Shown here piece by piece: positions 2,397 to 64,000 of a stretch of DNA of 64,000 bases. A program made the position numbers and the translations under genes. Origin of the DNA: Siphonodentalium dalli (taxonomy: Eukaryota; Mollusca; Scaphopoda; Gadilida; Siphonodentaliidae); contig CP136069.1 of the NCBI GenBank assembly GCA_032622095.1, forward strand, positions 8,138,036-8,202,035. The letters run 5' to 3'. The notes below the pieces were generated by a model that ran no database searches, was not told where the DNA came from, and saw only the letters and a list, made by a program, of their open reading frames with translations. Numbering within the stretch: position 1 is the first letter of the stretch; every line of letters starts with the position of its first letter.

Positions 2397-3988
2397 GTGG
2401 CATCAGTGCCGAGACAGCCATATTGGATGCCATCTTGGGAACTGCTCTTTTGCTAATTTTAAATCACAACATACCTTACCACGATGCATGGAGAAAAACA
2501 AACTAGTGTGACGGTTTAATTGTAAGTTTTCACCACTTGACTCACAAAACGAAGGACTGCAAAATCTATATTTAGCACACTGACCCAGTTTTATGATTAC
2601 GAAAGCCACGTGATTACGCATTTGACACAAAAATTGATAACATGGCTGCCTGTTGGTTCGTAATTTTTTAGAGGAGAGTCTGATACTTTTCTCTATTTTA
2701 TCTCTTCTTCGCGAATAACTCGGACTGTAGCATATATCAAAAGGTGACAGTGAGCGTAGTTATTGTATACAACCCATGCATAATTTTAACTTTTTGCATA
2801 AATTGCCATAATAACACGATGTAAGCTGCATGTTTACATTGTTCAATTTCCAATTTTCACAATTTGTCCGTTTGACTAACAGCTGATCGCTGGTTGTCAC
2901 TTTGATAATGTTAACCGGTTGGTATACAAAGCCCAGTACCTATTTATTTTCACTTTCACGTGTTTTACTCAACAATATTGCATTACTGTATAACTTCAGT
3001 TGAATTCATAGACATATATCAGTGTATATAGGCTTTGCATTTTATTTTGGAATGGATATTTAGACTAAAGTTAAAAATAAATTATAGGCTAGTCTAAATT
3101 AAACAGCACTAGCTACTCTTTACTTTAGTTTAGCATGGGTGACTAAACACAAGACTAAAGTACTAGTAGTAAACAGCGGTATACTGACACACACTTTAAT
3201 GTTTAGTTGACCAGAGCACCCTACCCATGCAGTAAGACTGTAAGTTCAAGTCAAGATGCTTTATAATCAATAATAAATACATTAATTAGAACATTTTATA
3301 TCACCGCTGCCACCAGGACCCCGCAGAAGTGTGGCTTTTTTAAGCAGGGCCCTTACGCAGTCAACTCAGTAGGCCTACCATTTACTACTTGCTCCTAGTT
3401 CCATACATGTATGCAGGACTCTATTTAACTGGAGTCACATAGCAATTTGCGATGCAATTTCAGGCCTGCAGGTTTCAAAATTATGTGTAACCTATTTTTT
3501 GTTCGCCTGGTTTGTGCTTAGCTAGGTTACCCATACATGTACCATAGCCTACATTATATAGCAGTTAGGGAAAATGCTATAATATTGTAATGTTGTAGGG
3601 TCGGGTTTAGTGTTCAAACCCGAAATACATGTGTGGTAGAGTGGTCAATTCCTACAATCATCACAGGATTATACGTTGAATAATAAGAATAACGTATACA
3701 AATAATTATTTAATTGAAGAATATCATTGTATTCAACATGCAAGCATATAGTCTATAATGCGCCGATTCAGTGGTTGTATTCCCATGCATAAGTATAGCA
3801 GCCCAAAGCTACATGTATGTTAACAGGGAGAGTCCAGAATCTGGCCTAAAATGGGTTAAATTCCGAAGTTGGGAATCCCAATAGACGTCAGCTAGCAAAG
3901 GGATGACTTTCGATTAATTCCCAAGTAAGTAAAACGCACCGCCTGTACAGGTGGTGACTAAATGCCACTGTAGCGTAAACACCGTGCC
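2397..3988. other. Unassigned DNA
   Basis: No repeat boundary recognised. A minus-strand open frame at 2403-2630 is cysteine-rich and crosses a possible donor near 2480, but its sequence fits no family I know. Confidence 0.3.
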
Positions 3989-16961: not shown

Positions 16962-17610
16962 TATAACGGGTCAATTTTCTGTGGTTATGGTAGTCGGGAT
17001 CTGAAGATGTCCAATGTCATTAAACGAACAAGTCTGATGTTGGGGAATAGCTTTTATTTACAATCATCCGGTTTTCCAAGATGAACATAACATATAACAG
17101 CAACAGGTATTCCTTATAACGTTAGCATGAAGTGTCCAATGGTAATCCTAATGACGTGAAACAATATAGCGACTAGTCTAGATAAAATGTTCTTTTTTTT
17201 AAGTTTGAAGATGAAGGTATTAATATACAATTGGAGGTGTGAAATGCCAAGCTGAATTAACCAATGAGTAAAAGGTGACAAGTAAAAACATGTTAATGGA
17301 AATAGAAAGTGTTGTCTAAATGAATAGGCCAATTAAGATTAATGAACTGAATAAGCCAAGGGGCAAAACAATTAAAAGGTACCAACATAATTAACAGGTT
17401 TGATTAAATGAATATGACAATTAAAAACTAATGAATTATAACCTGACAGGCTAAAAGATCTAAGATGTGATAATAATAATAAGACAAAACGAACCCTACA
17501 AACTGTTTGTGAAAAGTACTGAAGGCAAGAAATTAATTAATGAGAATGTGGAATGGCCAAAATTTAGAGATATTACTTCACAAAAAACACACTAAATTGA
17601 GTTCTAAGTT

Positions 17611-18555: not shown

Positions 18556-19984
18556 CTTGGACGCTAGCTAAAAAGAAGCGTAGCCGGATTCTCTCACCAA
18601 TTATAACGGGTCAATTTTCTGTGGTTATGGTAGTCGGGATCTGAAGATGTCCAATGTCATTAAACGAACAAGTCTGATGTTGGGGAATAGCTTTTATTTA
18701 CAATCATCCGGTTTTCCAAGATGAACATAACATATAACAGCAACAGGTATTCCTTATAACGTTAGCATGAAGTGTCCAATGGTAATCCTAATGACGTGAA
18801 ACAATATAGCGACTAGTCTAGATAAAATGTTCTTCCTTTTAAGTTTGAAGATGAAGGTATTAATATACAATTGGAGGTGTGAAATGCCAAGCTGAATTAA
18901 CCAATGAGTAAAAGGTGACAAGTAAAAACATGTTAATGGAAAAATAGAAAGTGTTGTCTAAATGAATAGGCCAATTAAAGTCATTAGCTTCACTCCCGGT
19001 GGGTATATATTTCATGTCAGACAGAACTGTATCCGATATACCATAAGAAAGGTCATAAAAAACTAGAAATAAAACCCCAAGGTTGCATATTATTGATGCG
19101 GTATTCGCCCCGTATTAAATTGTTGAAAACTGCGGTCAGAGTAAGAAATCTTCTCAGATACAACCACATTTTCGGCGCGAATCATCGCGTGGAGGTCATG
19201 GAATTATATTCGGAAGAAATCGGAACCGCCCGAAAAACGACGATCGGCTGGCACGCACGGTTGAGAGAACAGCCAAAACAATAGCCGGCATGTCGAAAAC
19301 CGAAAGTAGATTCAACAAAACACAAACTAGATAATGTGATTATGTCTTGATTTTTGCATCGATATCTCATGTTTTCTAATTGAAATGTCGAGAATTAATT
19401 GGCAACTAACAATGTGTACACACTGTACACTTTGTGTATATGTTATATATGGATTGTTTGCAAATTTAGGCGTGAATGGGTATTCACAGCATGCAAAATA
19501 CGATTGGCACACCTCCGAACCGATCAGCTGATCCAGGTCGTCATGCTTCTCATCGATTGAAAATAAACAAATCGGGGAATTCCTGCCATTCTTATCAAAC
19601 GTCAACACATTTGGTCGAATTTAAGATGAAGTTATCTGCAATGGCATTATTGACTTCTGTAAATGGAAATTATTAGCAATATTTCAAACGCAGAGAGTGC
19701 ATGAACCACCGATCGATCTATAAATTATAATAGCCCAATCGGGCTGAACTAGATCGATTGGTCTTCCTGGCATAGTGGTTGCTGCTGTAAGAGAGGGAAC
19801 TCTAAATTTCTTAAATATTAAAATTTTGTTTGTTTTCAGATTTGTACAAGTTTATAATGAATATTACTAGTAAAAAAATATACCATTGTCTTTCATTAGT
19901 TTCAAAATAAATGAGAATTTTTTTTAATTGGTAGAAACAGCTGGTCGAAAGAACAATTTAGAGTACTCCCCTTATCCCAGATTC

Positions 19985-22165
19985 ACTTTATAGTAGCTAA
20001 TTACACTTAAGCATAAATTATTTATGCTTAAGCATAATTAACTTACGATAAGCGTAATACATTTGAATTACGCTTGAGTGTAATTGGGTTCATCAGCTAT
20101 CTCACCTCTATGGGAGGAAGCCAAATTAACATTTAATAAATAATTGAGCTAAAGCCCCCCCCCCCCCCCAATCAAGGAATCTCTAATTACACTTGAGTGC
20201 AATAAGAATATTTCTTATCGCGCTTAAGTGCAATAAGAAGATTCCTTATTGCGCTTAGAGATTCCTTATTGCGCTTAAGTGCAATACGATATTCCTTTTT
20301 GTGCTTAAGTGCAATAAGATATTCCTTATTGTGCTAAGCGCAATTAGATATTTCCTTATTGAACTTAATCGCAATTATATCTTCCCTTATTATATCGCTT
20401 AAGCTCAATTATATCGCTTAAGCTCTATTATTTATTAAATGTTAATTTGGCTCCCCATATACCTCATGTATATTGGTATAACCTGATGTAGGTTACTGGC
20501 ATTAGTAATGCGGTTGCATCCATTTCAGCTTGAGGGGAGTTCAATGAGAGTGTATATGAATTACGTTTAAGCGTACTTCATTTACGCTTAAGCGCGGAAC
20601 TCATTTACACTTAAGCATAATTAATATGAATAATGCTTAAGCAAATACCTAACTCCAACTGATTTCCTCTGTCTGAATAATTGAGTCCATCTCATAGTAT
20701 ATGGGGGAGTCTAAACCGATGTTTGATTGATGTCTTATTGCCAGAGTAAATTTGAGTTTAGAGGAAATCGCATGGGAGACAGCCTTTTCAAATATATTAT
20801 TTATTAGTGTAAATCAATTGCGCTCAAGCGCAAAAAATATGTGTCTAATAATATATTTGCGCTTTAGCATAAAATTGCCATAAATGTGATCTATTATATG
20901 GGAGGCCCTTTTCACATTTATTATTTATTTACGCTTAAGCGCAAATAACCTCTATCATTTGCAATTAAGCAAATAGATCATATTTGCGCTTAAGCGCAAA
21001 TCATTTGCACTTAAGCGCAAATAAAAATCAATATGCATTGATCCCCCCTGAATTAATTTTACATGGCACAGGCCTAAACACATCACTAAAGTTGATATAG
21101 CCCCACCATATGAGGGAAACAATCCCCCAGAAACCCCAAGATCTGTTTTATGACCATGGAAATGATATAGATCTGTGTAGGATATGTCTCTTTTATAAAA
21201 TATACTATATCTCTGGGATGGCGACACAAATTCTTGGGGACAGGGATGCTGATATTATGAAAATAGGGGTTTTTCCCCAACTTCAAGTCAATGAGTACAC
21301 CATATGAGGGAAGCAAACCCCAGTAACCCCTAATTCCCTATTTATGGCCATGGAAATGGTATATATCTGTGCAGGAGATAATGAAATATACATGAGCTCT
21401 GGGAGTGAGGCACCAAATCTTGGGACACCAGGGACAGAGATGCTGATATGGATATGGAAATATGTTTTTTCTTCAACTTCGAGTCTGTATGGGGCTATTA
21501 CTATGGGCCCATGCTAATATAATATGAGATGGACTCAATCATTCACATCAGAGGGATGTAATGGAGTGTTAGGTATTTGCGCTTAAGCGCAAATAAATTG
21601 ATAGACACATATTTGTTCTTAAGCGCAAATGATTTACGCTTAAGCACAAATATTTGCGCTTAATGATTTATGCTTAAGCACAAATATTTGCGCTTAAGCG
21701 CAAATAAATAATAAATGTGAAAAGGGCCTCCCATACTATTTCCGCTAAAGCGCATATGATTTGTATTTAAGTATAAATGATTTGCTCTTAAGTGCAAATG
21801 ATTTACACTTAAGCGTAAATGATTTGCGATTAAGCAGAATAAATGTGAAAACGGCTTCTCGTATAATCGCTTAAGCATAATTCATTTATGATTAAGTGTA
21901 ATTAATCTATCAATGAAAATAAATGACAAGTGAGCTTAAGCGTAAATCAATTACGCTTAAGCACACTTTAATCAATTACGCTTAAGCACACTAGTCATAA
22001 TTCTATTACTCATAGGAGTAATGCTTTATCTACATCATACGGTTAAGCGTAAGTGAAGTACGCTTTATATGTGTGCATTACACCTGAGTGTAATACATTA
22101 CGCTTAATTGTAATTCACTTACGCTAATGTGCAATTAGCTAATACATGTGAAAAAGGCTTTCCAT
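19985..22165. repeat. 2.1-kb cluster of CTTAAG-centred palindromes
   Basis: By eye there are about 24 exact CTTAAG hexamers plus some 15 one-base variants, most extended to forms like TTGCGCTTAAGCGCAA or TTACGCTTAAGCATAA. Chance predicts fewer than one in this length. Larger inverted repeats bracket groups of them: 20108 with 20460, 20640-20700 with 21515-21590, and 20896-20936 with 21700-21737, the last with GGAGGCCCTTTTCACATTT. Not coding. Confidence 0.85.
21098..21490 (+). repeat. Two ~195-bp tandem units inside the CTTAAG cluster
   Basis: CACCATATGAGGGAA starts at about 21103 and 21298. Both units continue with ACCATGGAAATG or GCCATGGAAATG and GATGCTGATAT. They lack CTTAAG and sit in the gap between palindrome groups. 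Confidence 0.65.
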
Positions 22166-23240
22166 TATAGTTATCATCCATCAGAATGAATAGTGCTTAC
22201 TAAAGCTTGACAACAGAATTTGCCATTAAAAACATTTCATGGCCAATGAGCTAACAAATGTTCTGTACTGGCATATTGAATACCAATTATTTGTACTATT
22301 GTACAGGTATAATGTAATTAAACAGTTTTGAGTTACAAAAGTAAGACAACTCTTTCTGCACGGTACTGTGCTTGCGGCCAGATTGATGTAAAAATTCGGT
22401 CAATGCGCTTACAATTTTCTATAAATAGTAACATTTTGGAATTATTACCTCTCGATCACTGTTCGATTATAATCTTTGCCACTAACTCGGCCAATGTTCT
22501 TCCGTTTGTGATTTCACGCAACAATTCCCTTTCTATTCCTTCCCTGTCGAATTGACTACCGATTGCGATGTCAATTTGTTTTTCGCTTTAATATTCTGAT
22601 GTGCATGACGCTATTCCAGCGAACGGTCATCCTCCCTAGAAGCCATTTCTGAGAACGAAACCCGATTCAATCCCAATCGAGTCGGAAGTGCTCGGGCATT
22701 TCCGTGACTGCACAAGACAACGCATCGGTTTGTATTTTCGTGTTATTATGGTGAGATTAATCGGGACGATTGATGAATATAAATAGTTAGCCGAATGGCC
22801 GTATAATGTGTACAAACTGACTTCAGGATGGGGGATTTCGTGTATCTGAGTTATTTTATTCACTCTTCCCACAGAATGACGCAGGGAACTCAATTGTGAG
22901 GTTCAATTTACGTTTCACATCACTTTAAGATTAATGAACTGAATAAGCCAAGGGGCAAAACAATTAAAAGGTACCAACATAATTAACAGGTTTGATTAAA
23001 TGAATATGACAATTAAAAACTAATGAATTATAACCTGACAGGCTAAAAGATCTAAGATGTGATAATAATAATAAGACAAAACGAACCCTACAAACTGTTT
23101 GTGAAAAGTACTGAAGGCAAGAAATTAATTAATGAGAATGTGGAATGGCCAAAATTTAGAGATATTACTTCACAAAAAACACACTAAATTGAACAACAGT
23201 TCTAAGTTCTAATATGGCGAATATGGCCCGGTGATAAAGG

Positions 23241-38226: not shown

Positions 38227-41200
38227 AGCTCAACTTTACTTTGTAAAGTTTGAGCTATTGCCATGGCTTTGTCGTCCGTCGTCTGTGTGTACGTGTGTGC
38301 GTGTGTGCGTGTGTGTGCGTGTGTACGTGTGTACGTGTGTACGTAAGGCGTCAACAATGCAGGCTACAGGTCGTACCTTTCGTCGGATCATTATGAAATT
38401 TCTCATAGCTGTTGACATCAACATTTAGACCAGAATAATTAATTTTGGGGTCATTCGGAAAAAAAACATGGCCGCCAGTGGCCATATTGGATTTCAAAAT
38501 TCAATCCATTAGCACGGGCTACAGGCCGTACTGTTTGTCTGATCTTCATGAAATTTGTCATGGATGTTAATATTGACATGTAGATGGGAACGAGTAATTT
38601 TGGGGTCATTCGGCCCAAAAACATGGCCGTCAGCAGCCATCTTGGATTTTACTCTTTGTATGACTAGATTTTTTAGCACGGGCTACAGGTCGTACTTTTA
38701 GTCTGATCATCATAAATTTTATCAAGAATGTTAATAATTACATGTAGATGGGAACGAGTCATTTTGGGGTCATTCGGCCAAAAAACATGGCCGCCAGCAG
38801 CCATCTTGTATTTTACTCTTTGTATGACTAAATCCTTTAGCACGGGCTACAGGTCGTACCTTTAGTCTGATCATCATAAAATTTGTCATGGTTGTTGAAA
38901 TTGGAATGTAGATTGGAAACAAGTCATTTTGGGGTCATTCGGACAAAAAACATGGCCACCAGCGGCCATCTTGGATTAACAAATTTAATCCATTAGCACG
39001 GGCCACAGGTCGTACTGTTCGTCTGATGATCATGAAATTTGTCATGGATGATAATATTGACATGTAGATGGGAACGAGTAATTTTGGGGTCATTCGGCCT
39101 AAAAACATGGCCGCCAGCAGCCATCTTGGATTTTACTCTTTGTATGACTAAATTCTTTAGCACGGGCTGCAGGTCGTACTTTTAGTCTGATCATCATAAA
39201 TTTTATCAAGAATGTTAATAATGACATGTAGATGGGAACGAGTCATTTTGAGGCCATTCGGCCGAAAAACATGGCCGCCAGCAGCCATCTTGGATTTTAC
39301 TCTTTGTATGACTAAATCCTTTAGCATGGGCTGCAGGTCGTACCTTTAGTCTGATCATCATAAAATTTGTCATGTTTGTTGAAATTGGAATGTAGATGGG
39401 AACGAGTTATTTTGGGGTCATTCGGACAAAAAACATGGCCGCCAGCGGCCATCTTGGATTAAAGAATTTAATCCATTAGCACGGGCCACAGGTCGTACTG
39501 TTTGTCTGATGATCATGAAATTTGTCATGGATGATAATATTGACATGTAGATGGGAACGAGTAATTTTGGGGTCATTCGGCCAAAAAACATGGCCGCCAG
39601 CAGCCATCTTGGATTTTACTCTTTGTATGACTAAATTCTTTAGCACGGGCTGCAGGTTGTACCTTTAGTCTGATCATCATAAAATGTGTCATGGATGTTA
39701 ACAATGACATGTAGATGGGAACTAGTCATTTTGGGGTCATTCGGCCAAAAAAAAAAACCGCCAGCAGCCATCTTGGATTTTACTCTTTGTATGACTAAAT
39801 CCTTTAGCATGGGCTGCAGGTCGTACCTTTAGTCTGATCATCATAAAATTTGTCATGTTTGTTGAAATTGGAATGTAGATGGGAACGAGTTATTTTGGGG
39901 TCATTCGGACAAAAAACATGGCCGCCAGCGGCCATCTTGGATTAAAAAATTTAATCCATTAGCACGGGCCACAGGTCGTACTGTTCTTCTGATCATCATG
40001 AAATTTGTAATGGATGATAATATTGACATGTAGATGGGAACAAGTAATTTTGGGGTCATTCGGCCAAAAAACATGGCCGCCAGCAGCCATCTTGGATTTT
40101 ACTCTTTGTATGACTAAATTCTTTAGCACGGGCTGCAGGTCGTACCTTTAGTCTGATCATCATAAAATGTGTCATGGATGTTAACAATGGCATGTAGATG
40201 GGAACGAGTAATTTTGGGGTCATTCGGCCAAAAAACCTGGTCGCCAGCAGCCATCTTGGATTTTACTCTTTGTATGACTAAATCCTTTAGCACGGGCTAC
40301 AGGTTGTACCTTTAGCTGATCATCATGAAATTTGTCATGAATGTTAATAATGACATGTAGATGGGAACGAGTCATTTTGAGGTCATTCGGCCGAAAAATA
40401 TGGCCGCCAGCAGCCATCTTGGATTAAAAAATTTAATCCATTAGCACGGGCCACAGGTCGTACTGTTTGTCTGATGATCATGAAATTTGTCATGGATGAT
40501 AATATTGACATGTAGATGGGAACGAGTAATTTTGGGGTCATTCGGCCAAAAAACATGGCCGCCAGCAGCCATTTTGGATTTTACTCTTTGTATGACTAAA
40601 TTCTTTAGCACGGGCTGCAGGTCGTACCTTTAGTCTGATCATCATAAAATGTGTCATGGATGTTAACAATGACATGTAGATGGGAACTAGTCATTTTGGG
40701 GTCATTCGGCCAAAAAACATGGCCGCCAGCAGCCATCTTGGATTTTACTCTTTGTATGACTAAATCCTTTAGCACGGGCTACAGTTCGTACCTTTAGTCT
40801 GATCATCATAAAATTTGTCATGGTTGTTGAAATTGGAATGTAGATGGGAACGAGTCATTTTGGGGTCATTCGGACAAAAAACATGGCCGCCAGCGGCCAT
40901 ATTGGATTAAAAAATTTAATCCATTAGCACGGGCCACAGGTCGTACTGTTCTTCTGATCATCATGAAATTTGTAATGGATGATAATATTGACATGTAGAT
41001 GGGAACAAGTAATTTTGGGGTCATTCGGCCCAAAAACATGGCCGTCAGCAGCCATCTTGGATTTTACTCTTTGTATGACTAAATTTTTTAGCACGGGCTA
41101 CAGGTCGTACTTTTAGTCTGATCATCATAAATTTTATCAAGAATGTTAATAATGACATGTAGATGGGAACGAGTCATTTTGGGGTCATTCGGCCAAAAAA

Positions 41201-44200
41201 CATGGCCGCCAGCAGCCATCTTGTATTTTACTCTTTGTATGACTAAATCCTTTAGCACGGGCTACAGGTCGTACCTTTAGTCTGATCATCATAAAATTTG
41301 TCATGGCTGTTGAAATTGGAATGTAGATGGGAACGAGTCATTTTGGGGTCATTCGGACAAAAAACATGGCCGCCAGCAGCCATTTTGGATTTCAAAATTT
41401 AATCCATTAGCACGGGCCACAGGTCGTACTGTTCGTCTGATCACCATGAAATTTGTCATGGATGATAATATTGACATGTAGATGGGAACGAGTAATTTTG
41501 GGGTCATTCGGCCAATAAACATGACCGCCAGCAGCCATCTTCGATTTTACTCTTTGTATGACTAAATTCTTTAGCACGGGCTGCAGGTCGTACCTTTAGT
41601 CTGATCATCATAAAATTTGTCATGGATATTAACAATGACATGTAGATGGGAACGAGTAATTTTGGGGTCATTCGGCTAAAAAACATGGTCGCCAGCAGCT
41701 ATCTTGGATTTTACTCTTTGTATGACTAAATCCTTTAGCACGGGCTACAGGTCCTACTTTTAGTCTGATCATCATAAAATTTGTCAAGAATGTTAATAAT
41801 GACATGTAGATGGGAACGAGTCATTTTGGGGTCATTCGGCCAAAAAACATGGCCGCCAGCAGCCATCTTGGATTTTACTCTTTGTATGACTAAATCCTTT
41901 AGCACAGGCTACAGGTCGTACCTTTAGTCTGATCATCATAAAATTTGTCATGGTTGTTGAAATTGGAATGTAGATGGGAACGAGTCATTTTGGGGTCATT
42001 CAGACAAAAAACATGGCCGCCAGCAGCCATTTTGGATTTCAAAATTTAATCCATTAGCACGGGCCACAGGTCGTACTGTTCGTCTGATCACCATGAAATT
42101 TGTCATGGATGATAATATTGACATGTAGATGGGAACGAGTAATTTTGGGGTCATTCGGCCAATAAACATGGCCGCCAGCAGCCATCTTGGATTTTACTCT
42201 TTGTATGACTAAATTCTTTAGCACGGGCTGCAGGTCGTACCTTTAGTCTGATCATCATAAAATTTGTCATGGATATTAACAATGACATGTAGATGGGAAC
42301 GAGTAATTTTGGGGTCATTCGGGAAAAAAACCTGGACGCCAGCAGCCATCTTGGATTTTACTCTTTGTATGACTAAATCCTTTAGCACGGGCTACAGGTT
42401 GTACCTTTAGTCTGATCATCATGAAATGTGTCATGAATCTTAATAATGACATGTAGATGGGAACGAGTCATTTTGAGGCCATTCGGCCAAAAAACATGGC
42501 CGCCAGCAGCCATCTTGGATTTTACTCTTTGTATGACTAAATCCTTTAGCATGGGCTGCAGGTCGTACCTTTAGTCTGATCATCATAAAATTTGTCATGT
42601 TTGTTGAAATTGGAATGTAGATGGGAACGAGTTATTTTGGGGTCATTCGGACAAAAAACATGGCCGCCAGCGGCCATCTTGGATTAAAAAATTTAATCCA
42701 TTAGCACGGGCCACAGGTCGTACTGTTTGTCTGATGATCATTAAATTTGTCATGGATGATAATATTGACATGTAGATGGGAACGAGTAATTTTGGGGTCA
42801 TTCGGCCAAAAAACATGGCCGCCAGCAGCCATCTTGGATTTTACTCTTTGTATGACTAAATTCTTTAGCACGGGCTGCAGGTCGTACCTTTAGTCTGATC
42901 ATCATAAAATGTGTCATGGATGTTAACAATGACATGTAGATGGGAACTAGTCATTTTGGGGTCATTCGGCCAAAAAAAAAAACCGCCAGCAGCCATCTTG
43001 GATTTTACTCTTTGTATGACTAAATCCTTTAGCACGGGCTACAGGTCGTACCTTTAGTCTGATCATCATAAAATTTGTCATGGTTGTTGAAATTGGAATG
43101 TAGATGGGAACGAGTCATGTTGGGGTCATTCGGACAAAAAACATGGCCGCCAGCGGCCATTTTGGATTAAAAAAAATTAATCCATTAGCACGGGCCACAG
43201 GTCGTACTGTTCTTCTGATCATCATGAAATTTGTAATGGATGATAATATTGACATGTAGATGGGAACAAGTAATTTTGGGGTCATTCGGCCAAAAAACAT
43301 GGCCGCCAGCAGCCATCTTGGATTTTACTCTTTGTATGACTAAATTCTTTAGCACGGGCTGCAGGTCGTACCTTTAGTCTGATCATCATAAAATGTGTCA
43401 TGGATGTTAACAATGGCATGTAGATGGGAACGAGTAATTTTGGGGTCATTCGGCCAAAAAACCTGGTCGCCAGCAGCCATCTTGGATTTTACTCTTTGTA
43501 TGACTAAATCCTTTAGCACGGGCTACAGGTTGTACCTTTAGCTGATCATCATGAAATTTGTCATGAATGTTAATAATGACATGTAGATGGGAACGAGTCT
43601 TTTTGAGGTCATTCGGCCGAAAAATATGGCCGCCAGCAGCCATCTTGGATTAAAAAATTTAATCCATTAGCACGGGCCACAGGTCGTACTGTTTGTCTGA
43701 TGATCATGAAATTTGTCATGGATGATAATATTGACATGTAGATGGGAACGAGTAATTTTGGGGTCATTCGGCCAAAAAACATGGCCGCCAGCAGCCATCT
43801 TGGATTTTACTCTTTGTATGACTAAATTCTTTAGCACGGGCTGCAGGTCGTACCTTTAGTCTGATCATCATAAAATGTGTCATGGATGTTAACAATGACA
43901 TGTAGATGGGAACTAGTCATTTTGGGGTCATTCGGCCAAAAAACATGGCCGCCAGCAGCCATCTTGGATTTTACTCTTTGTATGACTAAATCCTTTAGCA
44001 CGGGCTACAGGTCGTACCTTTAGTCTGATCATCATAAAATTTGTCATGGTTGTTGAAATTGGAATGTAGATGGGAACGAGTCATTTTGGGGTCATTCGGA
44101 CAAAAAACATGGCCGCCAGCGGCCATATTGGATTAAAAAATTTAATCCATTAGCACGGGCCACAGGTCGTACTGTTCTTCTGATCATCATGAAATTTGTA

Positions 44201-45725
44201 ATGGATGATAATATTGACATGTAGATGGGAACAAGTAATTTTGGGGTCATTCGGCCAAAAAACATGGCCGCCAGCAGCCATCTTGGATTTTACTCTTTGT
44301 ATGACTAAATTCTTTAGCACGGGCTGCAGGTCGTACCTTTAGTCTGATCATCATAAAATGTGTCATGGATGTTAACAATGACATGTAGATGGGAACGAGT
44401 AATTTTGGGGTCATTCGGCCTAAAAACCTGGTCGCCAGCAGCCATCTTGGATTTTACTCTTTGTATGACTAAATCCTTTAGCACGGGCTACAGGTTGTAC
44501 CTTTAGCTGATCATCATGAAATTTGTCATGAATCTTAATAATGACATGTAGATGGGAACGAGTCATTTTGAGGTCATTCGGCCGAAAAACATGGCCGCCA
44601 GCAGCCATCTTGGATTTTACTCATTGTATGACTAAATCCTTTAGCATGGGCTACAGGTCGTACCTTTAGTCTGATCATCATAAAATTTGTCATGGTTGTT
44701 GAAATTGGAATGTAGATTGGAAACAAGTCATTTTGGGGTCATTCGGACAAAAAACATGGCCACCAGCGGCCATCTTGGATTAACAAATTTAATCCATTAG
44801 CACGGGCCACAGGTCGTACTGTTCGTCTGATGATCATGAAATTTGTCATGGATGATAATATTGACATGTAGATGGGAACGAGTAATTTTGGGGTCATTCG
44901 GCCTAAAAACATGGCCGCCAGCAGCCATCTTGGATTTTACTCTTTGTATGACTAAATTCTTTAGCATGGGCTACAGGTCGTACCTTTAGTCTGATCATCA
45001 TAAAATTTGTCATGGATGTTAACGATGACATGTAGATGGGAACGACTCATTTTGGGGTCAATCGGCCGAAAACATGGCCGCCAGCAGCCATCTTGGATTT
45101 TACTCTTTGTATGACTAAATTCTTTATTTAGCACGGGCTACATGTCATACCTTTAGTCTGATCATCATAAAATTTGTCATGAATGTTAATAATGACATGT
45201 AGATGGGAACGAGTCATTTTGGGATCATTCGGCCAAAAAACATGGCCGCCAGCTGCCATCTTTGATTTTACTCTTTGTATGACTAAATTCTTTAGCACGG
45301 GCTACATGTCATACCTTTAGTCTGATCATCATAAAATTTGTCATGAATGTTAATAATGACATGTAGATGGGAACGAGTCATTTTGGGATCATTTGGCCAA
45401 AAAACATGGCCGCCAGCAGCCATCTTCGATTTTACTCTTTGTATGACTAAATTCTTTAGCATGGGCTACAGGTCGTACCTTTAGTCTGATCGTCATAAAA
45501 TTTGTCATGGATGTTAACGATGACATGTAGATGGGAACGACTCATTTTGGGGTCATTCGGCCGAAAACAAGGCCGCCAGCAGCCATCTTGGATTTTACTT
45601 TTCTCTTCATGTCTATAAACATGTATTAGATATTCAACTTTCCACATTCCTAATGGCTCCATTGACTGTAATACATTAAATTATTCCCTTTCCAAGTTGA
45701 GCTACAGTGTCATTGACACTTTCAT
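38227..45725 (+). repeat. Pearl-like repeat with a 7.3-kb core of ~160-bp units
   Basis: The left flank is a hairpin, AGCTCAACTTTAC...GTAAAGTTTGAGCT, then TATTGCCATGGC and a GTGTGTACGT microsatellite (38280-38345). About 45 core units of 155-164 bp follow, with CATTTTGGGGTCATTCGG, CATGGCCGCCAGCAGCCATC and GGGCTACAGGTCGTAC. A variant with TTTAATCCATTAGCACGGG returns every third or fourth unit. The right flank includes TTGAGCTACAGTGTCATTG, a 3' hairpin. Open frames of 60-68 codons are by-products. The layout, but not proven homology, matches bivalve pearl / Helitron-derived repeats. Confidence 0.85.
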
Positions 45726-52110: not shown

Positions 52111-55100
52111 CTAAGAGCTATCCTCATCACAATCAGAACTGTCCTCTTCGGAACTATCATTTACTTCTATATCACCAGTATCATCAATATCGTCATCTGA
52201 TTCCTCGGACTCACATAACACCTCTCCCAGATCTGTCGGAATCTGTGGTCCAGTAAACCACACAATACCAAAACGACCTTCCACTTCCTCCCAGTCGTGC
52301 ATGGGAGGGTCCATTGTTGAGGGAATTGCAAGCGTATATAGGCCACAAAGTTTGACCTGATGATTTTTTGGTATTATGCCGTTTTCGAAAGAGGGAGACC
52401 ACTAGAGTCAGCCCCTTTGATTTTTGACAAAGGCTGGCTGTTGTTGGTGGGGGCGAATTTCGTGTGGAATATTGCATATCTAGCATCATCCACATTCTCC
52501 AAAGAAGCTTTTATGAACATGGAACAAACAAACGATTCAAGAGAGTCCAATGTCTCACGACTTACATTTGTCGATGTTCCTAAACTAGCGAAGGCAGATA
52601 AGAATCTATCGGATTTAATCGCCGTGTCAAAAGGTTTAATTTTACCTTTTCGCATGAAAGAAGCTGTATAATCATAGCCAGTAAAGGTGACAGTATTCCT
52701 GGTAATGCATCACAAACAATTCTCCCAAGATGGCCCTGTATATTTGACAAGCGTTCCCACAGGCCCGGTACTCATAACACACATTTGCAAACCCAAACAT
52801 CAAACAACATTCCCCTAGCACTTCAACTTAAATATTCTTTGCCCACTCATATGCCAAAAATGACAAAAATTACACTTTAAAAGTCTCTGAGTTTAAATTT
52901 TCAGCAAAAGACACGATTTGCAAATTTGCTGAGTGTTCTGAGCAGATCACGGGTGATACCGCCATAAGTTGGCGATAGGTTTGTGAGTGTACGAATCAGG
53001 AAAAAAGCGTCTACAGACTTTGGCGCTTCTGATTCTACCATTCCTTCAAGTTTGTGAAACAATTTTGCTTTATCTGTTTTCATTTTTGTACCGTCAATGT
53101 GAGCCATGCACAGCGGCACAGGCGTCAGCGGGTAACTGAAAAGCTTGCGAAGATCGATGTCCATTAAACAAGATAGATATAACAATCGCCCAAATAGGTC
53201 ATGCGTGCATTTGATTTCTTTCAACTTCTTGTCTTTATAAGTCAGTTTCATCGAAAAACGGCGGTTGATGCAAAATTCTTAACATTGCGCCTGACTATAG
53301 GCTTCTCGAATCTCTTGTCATCATTGAGGCATTCAGATTTGAATTCATCCCACCATGCCTCTCCAGTTTGAACAGCTTTGAGTATTTCGGTAGCTACAAT
53401 TTTCCCGACAGCACGGCCCGTGGATAGCGAATATAAATCAGAACTTGGCACTTTGTCCGAGAACAGATTCAGTGTGGACTGTATTCCTTCCATGAGCTTG
53501 TGAAGATAAGAATTGTCGCGTTTTACTCTGTATGTTTTCAAATCGTTCACGCTGTCTTCTGTTGGGGACTTACCAGCTTTTATATTTAAGTAACTGATTA
53601 TTGACCCCTTCATGGATCGGGTAATTATCCATCGTCTACGTGCACCAGCAGAAGATAGGGACGTTATTCCAGTGAGTCTAGATGCAGCGTCCCTGTTGAT
53701 GGTTTGCTCAAGGGTCAAATCAACAGGGCTCCTGGAGAACGAGTTATGAGTACGTCGAACTGATAGGGCTCCATTTTCAACCATCTCTCTTACACCTGGA
53801 TGCATTGCTTCAACATTATATAAATCCAGTACATACATCACCATCCATCTGGCATAATTGTGCCTGGATGTTGCAAAGAAGATAGCAGACATTGCATGTA
53901 AAGAATACACGTACAATTCAAGGTCGTTTGTGTGGCAGTCTCGACTAAACAGGAGAAAAAATTCAACCAGATCAATGTACATTGCCCAATACTTTGCTGT
54001 TTCACCGTGAGCGCCCGCTCTTGTTTGGTCAAAGTATTGTTCATATGATGTCATGAGAGTCTCATATTCAACAGACTTCTCGACAGTTTGCATCAGATCT
54101 GGCGACGGATGTTCGTTCATCTGTTGAAAATATTTCAGCAAACCTTCAGGCATGCCCTTTTTGTACCAATCTAGGAATTGTCGGAAGTGTAAAATTCTGA
54201 ATGCCTGTGCAAGTACTGGATGTAGACGTTTGCACCTATTATAATGTTTTCCAGATATAAATCCTTTCAAAGAACCACTTGCTAAGACTCCAGTGTCGAC
54301 AAGGATATGCGGACCACCGGACTTGTCAAGTAAATATCCAAGTGAACCAAAATATGCTTGTTGAATATGGAATGCACCAAAGCATACAAATATATTATCA
54401 AACTTCGGGCTCTCAACTGATTGAATTTGTTTGGCTGGTTTAGCTATCGCTAAGTCATAATGGACTACAACCGCCTTCTGACTGCACTCTTGTGCAACCT
54501 TCTGAGATATCCTCATGGTTTCCGCAACTACATCTAGACGAGTTGGGGGAGGTTGGTGTTCTCCATATATGATATACATTGCTGATGCAGTCTAGAGTTC
54601 CAACCAACCCACATGGGTGTCGATTTAAATAGATGACATGAAATCATCCAGGCTTCGTCGCGTCTCTTCAATTGCTGAAGATTTGTGGGAGGTGGCTTGG
54701 TCTTTATTCGGTAATCAAATTTTGACAATTTAGGTTTTTTTCTGTATGGCCCTAGGTCAGTTATTATGCCCCCGACTTGAAGTCGGCGGGTATATAGTGG
54801 ACGTCTCCGTCCGTCCGTCCGTCCGTACATCCGTCCGTCCGTACGTCCGTACAAACTTTTTGCATTATTTTTCAGCAACCGCTGGGCAGATTTAGCTGAT
54901 ATTTGGTATGGTGATAGAGCAGCATGGCCCTTTTTTCAACTTAGAAAATTTGAATTTTCGCTTGTTTTTGGGTTTCTGGGTTTCTGGATCGCTTGTTTTG
55001 TGGTTTTTAGTCAACATTTCTGTACGAACTTCTTTTGGAATGGTCATATAGACCTCCTCGGATATCCGCAGTTTCGTCCATGCTTAATCCTAATTGCTAC

Positions 55101-62666: not shown

Positions 62667-63004
62667 AGGAGAGACCCCTCGTGTCTTTATTCCACTAAGC
62701 TGCTCACTGCTGCTAATTTTACTTCCCTGTTTCTGAATGAATTATATTATATTGTCACAGACTCTGCATGAAATAGTGTGAATACATTGCTCGATTACAT
62801 TGTTTGATTACATTGTTCGATTACATTGTTCGATTACATTGTTCGTATTGTTCTCTGGAGACTCCTAACTTCATGGATTGTTTGTTTATGTCTGTGAATA
62901 ATTAATCCTGTCTGTCTTTCTGAATCAAATCAAAGGTCGTTGTTTTAAGATAAAACTTATCAGGGGAGATTCCATTCATTACTCTGAGCAGGAACAATAC
63001 TTAA
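62667..63004. other. Unassigned DNA with a short GTTCGATTACATT repeat
   Basis: Four 14-bp units of TTGTTCGATTACAT type lie at 62786-62843. Nothing else. Confidence 0.4.
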
Positions 63005-63118
63005 AATAGTGTGTCTGTCATTTTCAGAATGTTTTCCTCAGAGGGTGAATCCTCACAGCGTGGGATAGCATCACCAAATTCACCCTCTAGGAACCACATT
63101 CTGTTTAGGCCTTATATT
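63005..63118. mobile_element. hAT-like MITE family, fragment
   Basis: AAATAGTGTGTCTGTCATT and the CACCAAATTCACCCTCTAGG half-palindrome are family sequence. The termini are diverged. Confidence 0.58.
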
Positions 63119-63142
63119 CTGGGAAGTATCTGTAGTCATTGT

Positions 63143-64000
63143 TAGCTCAACTTACTTTGTAAGTTTGAGCTATTGCCATGGGTTGGCGTCCGTCGTCCAT
63201 GTGTCTGTGCGTCCGTGTGTCCGTCAACAATTTCCTTTGGCGCGGGCTACAGATCGTACCTTTGGTATGATCTTTATGAAATTTGTCATGAATGTTGACA
63301 TTGACATGTAGATGGGAACGAGTCATTTTGGGGTCATTCGGCCAAAAAACATGGCCGCTGGTGGCCATCTTGGATTTTAAAATTAAATCCATTGGCACGG
63401 TCTACAGGTAGTACTGTTCGTTTGATCATCATGAAATTTGTCATGGATGTTAATATTGACATGTAGATGGGAACAAGTCATTTTGGGGTCGTTTTGTCAG
63501 AAAACATGGCCGCCAGCAGCCATTTTGGATTTTACTCTTCGCATGACTAAATCCTTTGGCGCGGGCTGCAGGTCGTAGCTTTAGTCGGATCTTCATGAAA
63601 TTGTCATGGATGTTAACAATGACATGTAGATGGGAACGAGTCATTTTGGGGTCGCACAGCCAAAAAACATTGCCGCCAGCAGCCATCTTGGATTTTACTC
63701 TTTGCATGACTAAATCCTTTGGCGTGGGCTACAGGTCGTAGCTTTGCCATTGGTCTGATCTTCATGAAATTTGTCATGGATGTTAACAATGACATGTAGA
63801 TGGGAACGAGTCATTTTGGGGTCATTCGGTCAAAAAACATGGCCACCAGCAGCCATCTTGGATTTTACTCTTTGCATGACTAAATCCTTTGGCACAGCTA
63901 CATGTAGGTTAGACATTTCAATTAGCACCTTTCCGATTCCTCCATTTACTGTCAACCATTAAATTATTCCCTTACCTAAGTTGAGCTACAGTGTCATTGA
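63143..64000 (+). repeat. Pearl-like repeat, same subfamily as 38-45.7 kb, cut by window end
   Basis: TAGCTCAACTTACTTTGTAAG begins the left-flank hairpin, followed by TTGGCGTCCGTCGTCC, four core units and the right flank TTGAGCTACAGTGTCATTG at 63980-64000. With four units it is the plain form of the repeat that has about 45 units at 38.2-45.7 kb. Confidence 0.82.

Follow-up and report, generated by a model that had tools for sequence, protein, structure and literature searches.

A dense CTTAAG cluster in the scaphopod Siphonodentalium dalli as the probable pooled subterminal repeats of nested IS3EU-like transposons

The ends of Tol2 and hAT-type transposons carry repeated short motifs that are needed for transposition. 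These motifs are not known to be 16-bp dyads, and the ends and target duplications of such transposons differ from those of the elements described here. IS3EU/GingerRoot transposons are marked by TA..TA termini, 6-bp target duplications and an IS3/IS481-related DDE transposase without the HHCC motif (PMC10045372), and the main text of that source contains no occurrence of the word "subterminal". According to PMC9587614 piggyBac elements duplicate TTAA upon insertion, and according to PMC10045372 they have 5'-CC..GG-3' ends. Palindromes of 19 bp are also present at their ends; in the solved complex, each monomer of a dimer contributes one C-terminal domain to binding of the palindrome (PMC11707139). 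The same account reports that several transposons need arrays of sites and that an extra site inhibits piggyBat. PiggyBac-like MITEs have been described in corals (PMC2872659).

The window analysed here, meaning the whole 64-kb stretch of DNA, contains 24 exact CTTAAG sites within approximately 2 kb (20006-21986), where about 0.5 would be expected for a stretch of that size. This corresponds to a density about 50 times expectation and agrees with the count in the preliminary description of this locus. Across the entire window there are 27 CTTAAG sites, compared with 13.85 per window in dinucleotide shuffles. The clustered sites, characterised by site count and pairing score, are the centres of dyads of the form TTGCGCTTAAGCGCAA. 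As only 4 of the 24 are perfect over 16 bp, the initial impression that they are "mostly" palindromes of 14-16 bp was too strong; 7 or 8 of the 8 positions pair in 10 of the 24 dyads and at least 6 in 17, and the five outer pairs reach a mean of 3.25 matches versus 1.31 at random window positions. Site spacing is irregular, as had also been noted. The statement that the cluster is not a simple tandem array holds for the cluster as a whole but not for some of its parts, which contain several short tandem runs whose period ranges from 19 to 42 bp (13 overlapping rows). An Rfam search of the window returned no matches.

These features are probably best understood as subterminal repeats pooled from nested, non-autonomous transposons of a single lineage, with arrays of putative DDE-transposase-binding dyads. 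Within the window, the lineage is based on one complete copy and on two more that were read by eye. The complete copy, recovered by end alignment and end scanning, is an IS3EU-like element of 839 bp (20897-21735) with the termini TATGGGAGGCC...GGCCTCCCATA and eight CTTAAG palindromes placed near both ends. It is flanked by CTATTA on the left (20891-20896) and CTATTT on the right (21736-21741), a 6-bp target duplication with one mismatch. A nested element of 351 bp (20109-20459; TATGGGAGGAAGCC...GGCTCCCCATA), read by eye, contains five CTTAAG sites between the flanks CACCTC and TACCTC, which likewise differ by one mismatch, and its left end is about 85% similar to element ends of loci L025 and L015 by BLAST. 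The third, as seen by eye, appears to be an element of this lineage that is older and degraded, with approximate limits of 19990 and 22169. Eleven CTTAAG sites lie in this remnant outside its two inserts; its right terminus GTGAAAAAGGCTTTCCATTATA is located near 22148-22169, its left tip is lost, and TAGCTAATTRCAC is common to both of its ends, all as judged by eye. The 351-bp element is absent from the scan for diverged ends described below, for which it is too diverged, and the older remnant is likewise absent from it.

All three IS3EU-like elements, and with them the entire CTTAAG cluster, reside in a Kolobok-like element of 3,946 bp on the forward strand (18979-22924), delimited by comparison of copies. 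It begins with AGTCATTAGC, ends with CATCACT and is bordered by TTAA target duplications at 18975-18978 and 22925-22928, which bears out the earlier placement of the cluster inside a TTAA-bounded element. A copy in L006 is 98.2% identical, has different flanks and shows its own TTAA duplication, again on both sides; an older relative in L015 starts at TTAA, with the duplication seen on the left side only. A host repeat without the insert at 17322-17357 represents a paralogous empty site. The TTAA unit has moved whole, with the nested transposons inside, and this constitutes co-mobilisation. At one mismatch or less, its left end occurs 378 + 388 times (766) in the genome and the control 0 times. 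Based on the sequence of its ends, the AG...CT termini (a 5'-RR..YY-3' pattern) and the TTAA duplication fit the definition of Kolobok in PMC9587614. The likeness to Kolobok lies in these two features and the difference in coding capacity, as the carrier has no long frame (all frames overlapping 18979-22924 are shorter than 150 aa). A DDD/E transposase with the C/DxxH signature is a further mark of Kolobok. Presumably a Kolobok-like element was hit by IS3EU-like transposons and now carries them as passengers. A TTAA element amplified with foreign transposons aboard is one way in which nested composites spread.

Complete copies of the nested elements are found elsewhere in the genome. Twenty ten-kilobase regions around palindromes were fetched and then checked for exact TATGGGAGGC or its complement, which is present in 11 of them and in the window and was not found in the other 9 of the 20. 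Among these nine, L007 and L011 have diverged ends of the same kind according to the end scan, and L013 and L017 show similar ends by eye. Seven end-to-end copies had been aligned before the wider scan for diverged ends, which covered 28 sources (the window, L003, L005-L026 and L041-L044) and yielded 16 end pairs in 15 of them. With the window, L006, L022 and L026 counted as one insertion, this gives 13 independent complete copies, four of which (L025 and L041-L043) had been fetched because their ends paired. These copies are mobile units with long inverted ends and TA..TA termini, TATGGGAGGCC...GGCCTCCCATA, and a 6-bp target duplication that is exact in 10 of 13 (GCCCTC, CATTTG, TACAAG, CAAAGC, TCATTG, TATTTC, ATGACT, CGTGAC, CGTTCA and TAGACC), has one mismatch in two (the window and L007) and is absent from L014. 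No clean duplication surrounds the element in L022. The 13 copies contain 138 dyads, of which 126 are no more than 350 bp away from an element end; a uniform distribution would place 38% there. In four copies (L007, L011, the first copy in L012, and L014) nearly all dyads are found at one end.

The position of the dyads, their form and the precedent of other transposons suggest that they serve as transposase-binding sites. Each dyad, TTGCGCT-NN-AGCGCAA, would serve as a putative target of a dimeric DDE transposase, with the enzyme supplied in trans. The presence of many sites per end could raise affinity and help in pairing both ends, by analogy with what has been proposed for other transposons with subterminal arrays. 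Gain and loss of sites in the arrays probably come about through local tandem duplication, with copies becoming homogenised. An array of binding sites for an element-encoded protein had been among the first readings offered for this cluster and fits best as putative binding; the elements concerned, however, are the nested IS3EU-like transposons rather than the TTAA element.

Alternatively, the arrays could be a neutral by-product, in which a palindrome near inverted ends was multiplied by slippage and gene conversion and has no binding role. The local tandem runs of 19-42 bp are in line with this, and many of the variants have the appearance of CpG decay (GCGC to GCAC/GTGC). Such a history is nevertheless harder to reconcile with the crowding of sites at element ends (126/138) and with the conservation of the dyad while array order and spacers differ between copies (L025, L041-L043). 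Dyad symmetry and spacing were assessed in 19 sources, namely the window and L003-L024 minus L004, L006, L016 and L019, which overlap with or nearly duplicate others (L019 as judged from matching BLAST figures); L025 and later loci lie outside this sample. Among its 165 CTTAAG sites, symmetric double variants are in excess at arm pairs 5, 6 and 8 (observed versus shuffled: 18 vs 7.7, 5 vs 0.4 and 30 vs 16.7; 0 of 2,000 shuffles in each case) and show no excess over shuffles at arm pairs 3, 4 and 7 (3 vs 4.5, 8 vs 5.8 and 0 vs 0.3). As kinship of copies inflates symmetric counts, the excess lends modest support to selection on the dyad. In a set of 107 distinct spacers, the dyad-to-dyad distances have maxima at 20-21, 25-26 and 30-31 bp, which also speaks against a neutral origin, although tandem duplication could cause such peaks too. 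Phasing with the 10.5-bp helical period is weak in size (R 0.29) and is reached by 0 of 300 jittered sets, whereas the best period is 5.55 bp with R 0.47 (5.25 bp gives R 0.46; 0 of 300 jittered sets). Since both periods could stem from tandem duplication, little weight is placed on helical phasing. Taken together, a neutral origin appears rather unlikely.

In favour of binding, a further pattern is seen in the cores of the dyads. The inverted ends of L025, L041, L042 and L043 differ from the consensus at one of 28 bases, and each of these copies has its own exact 6-bp duplication, but the core is CTGAAG/CTTCAG at all 65 of their 65 dyads. The nine CTTAAG-type copies contain 73 dyads, 70 with a TA centre and none with GA/TC, and in all loci outside L025 and L041-L043, near-duplicates included, a GA/TC core occurs in 4 of 260 dyads. 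Core type segregates by subfamily, and what is unusual about the family is this wholesale switch of the core, with ends that have hardly changed. Against a role in binding, homogeneous cores could also follow from one mutation and subsequent array expansion, as a neutral history would have it, without selection. Perhaps the dyad arrays even form a co-evolving address code in which mobilisation of an element depends on its array rather than on its terminal repeats, an idea that we regard as doubtful. If true, a diverged transposase would mobilise only its own CTTAAG or CTGAAG/CTTCAG set.

The core switch also bears on the suggestion, made in the preliminary description, that the CTTAAG cluster is a trap that arose as a TTAA-targeting element inserted and excised again and again. 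TTAA is present in every CTTAAG, the cluster lies inside a TTAA-duplicated element, and in the first 11.2 Mb of contig C1 palindromes are located downstream of 4 of 4 TTAA-element left ends among the matches listed. TTAA is nonetheless not the key to the cluster, because the 65 sites in the four relatives are without it and because, of the 725 left ends of the TTAA element that match exactly, GCGC precedes only three. When one-mismatch forms of GCGC are included the number rises to 22 of 725, against a chance level of about 17 estimated from base composition. Furthermore, of the 28 palindrome clusters in that 11.2-Mb part of C1, at least 4 have a TTAA-element left end and the other 24 have none among the matches listed; four is a lower bound, as at least one of the 24, L022, is a partial carrier copy (93-95%) without the listed left end. 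A TATGGGAGGCC end, in comparison, occurs within 3 kb of at least 14 of the 28 clusters. The trap is therefore extremely improbable. Palindrome clusters are indeed linked to the TTAA element, but this link is secondary, and the element is the carrier of the cluster, not its cause.

In the complete genome of 2.23 Gb (9 contigs), TTGCGCTTAAGCGCAA occurs 10,339 times in exact form, while its reversed control does not occur; at one mismatch or less there are 31,504 occurrences (control 2). The ends of the IS3EU-like elements are found 4,587 + 4,589 times (9,176) at one mismatch or less and TTGCGCTGAAGCGCAA 1,066 + 1,142 times, each with a control of 0. The palindrome counts identify the cluster as a trait of a repeat family. 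A number as high as 31,504 dyads could also be expected if the dyad is the target of a cellular or domesticated DNA-binding protein of the host, in which case the elements would disperse a silencing signal or a network of binding sites. The switch of cores by subfamily and the location of dyads at element ends fit element biology better, which makes recognition by a host protein very unlikely. The transposon reading explains a conspicuous sequence feature, and the thousands of near-identical dyads with two core types and nearly the same inverted ends amount to a large natural experiment, from which one could learn what features a transposase recognises and along what paths subterminal arrays change.

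With respect to known families, the nested elements fit IS3EU/GingerRoot by their termini and duplication, as both have TA..TA termini and 6-bp duplications. They differ in being known from non-coding copies and are placed by their ends alone; as no transposase is tied to these ends, they are called IS3EU-like by their ends and are not proven members. Membership in piggyBac was considered and dropped, given TAT..ATA ends with a 6-bp duplication in the nested elements and AG..CT ends with TTAA in the carrier. The palindromic subterminal sites are shared with piggyBac, where transposase binding is a feature of the piggyBac sites; the 6-bp duplications, the TAT..ATA ends and the larger number of sites per end are not. 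Literature searches on IS3EU, GingerRoot and subterminal repeats, in a scope outside most subscription papers, Repbase and Dfam, gave no description of this family among the matches listed, nor did 16-bp dyads in arrays with switchable cores turn up among them. For GCGCTTAAGCGC, the matches listed were papers whose available text concerns other subjects. This is a new family of a known kind, as subterminal arrays and palindromic sites are each already known.

A transposase-bearing copy with these ends was not found among the loci examined. The largest frames are of at most 138 aa in L041-L043 (2.8 kb) and at most 118 aa in L025 (4.4 kb), and L026 (3.6 kb, a nested end-to-end pair) has no frame longer than 155 aa. 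Frames in L009, L015, L025 and L026 had no Pfam match, and the frame in L010 is a WDR5 gene. The rva_4 profile (PF24764) has 126 matches in the genome. Of these, 14 loci were inspected as pieces of 3.5-5 kb (12 of 3.5 kb; L039 and L040 of 5 kb), a scope in which ends further out would be missed, and none has these ends together with palindromes; L029 contains one CTCCCATA and is without palindromes. An rva_4 match at 137.8088 Mb of C1, 5.6 kb from an element end, was dropped as a candidate partner after inspection of L044 (1.6 kb, stopping before the right end), which looks like an ordinary non-coding copy. For rve (PF00665), 150 of 4,228 candidates in the genome were scored; they look mostly like long frames resembling retroelement genes, and a comparison by eye with the element ends listed revealed nothing closer than about 7 kb.

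Long frames are present on the reverse strand in the window (53248-54591, 447 aa) and in L015 (7213-9303, 456 and 240 aa). Those of L015 are among the frames without a Pfam match, and all three may be coded by mobile elements. Translated matches to a frame of L029 recur at regular intervals in the window (approximately 38,500-45,500 and 63,000-64,000) and in L006 (6,900-8,450), and this regularity suggests a dispersed tandem array whose period is roughly 160 bp. From about 23,880 to beyond 27,000, the window contains a GC-rich minisatellite whose repeat unit measures about 30 bp (ggaccagcctagagggtgacatgggagaca); GC content is about 0.61 at 24-28 kb and roughly 0.38-0.40 in the surroundings. 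Elements of about 1.2 kb (L009 4778-5962, L010, L012) have a long inverted duplication in the middle, GACTCCTTAACCACAGCAGAATTATGG..., part of which is also found beside rva_4 exons of another transposon group (L030-L038). In L015, three consecutive element ends are located at 3295, 3500 and 3702, in steps of 205 and 202 bp, and the first two are each followed by a copy of a piece of the TTAA element, as if end and flank had been tandemly duplicated together. At C5:107,363,859-107,374,173, four identical element ends follow each other in steps of exactly 3,424 bp, where a tandem array seems to have captured an inverted element end. Lastly, a small TTAA-flanked element with ends like AGGGATACTGTACGCC was seen by eye inside the IS3EU-like copy of L044 (approximately 155-745).
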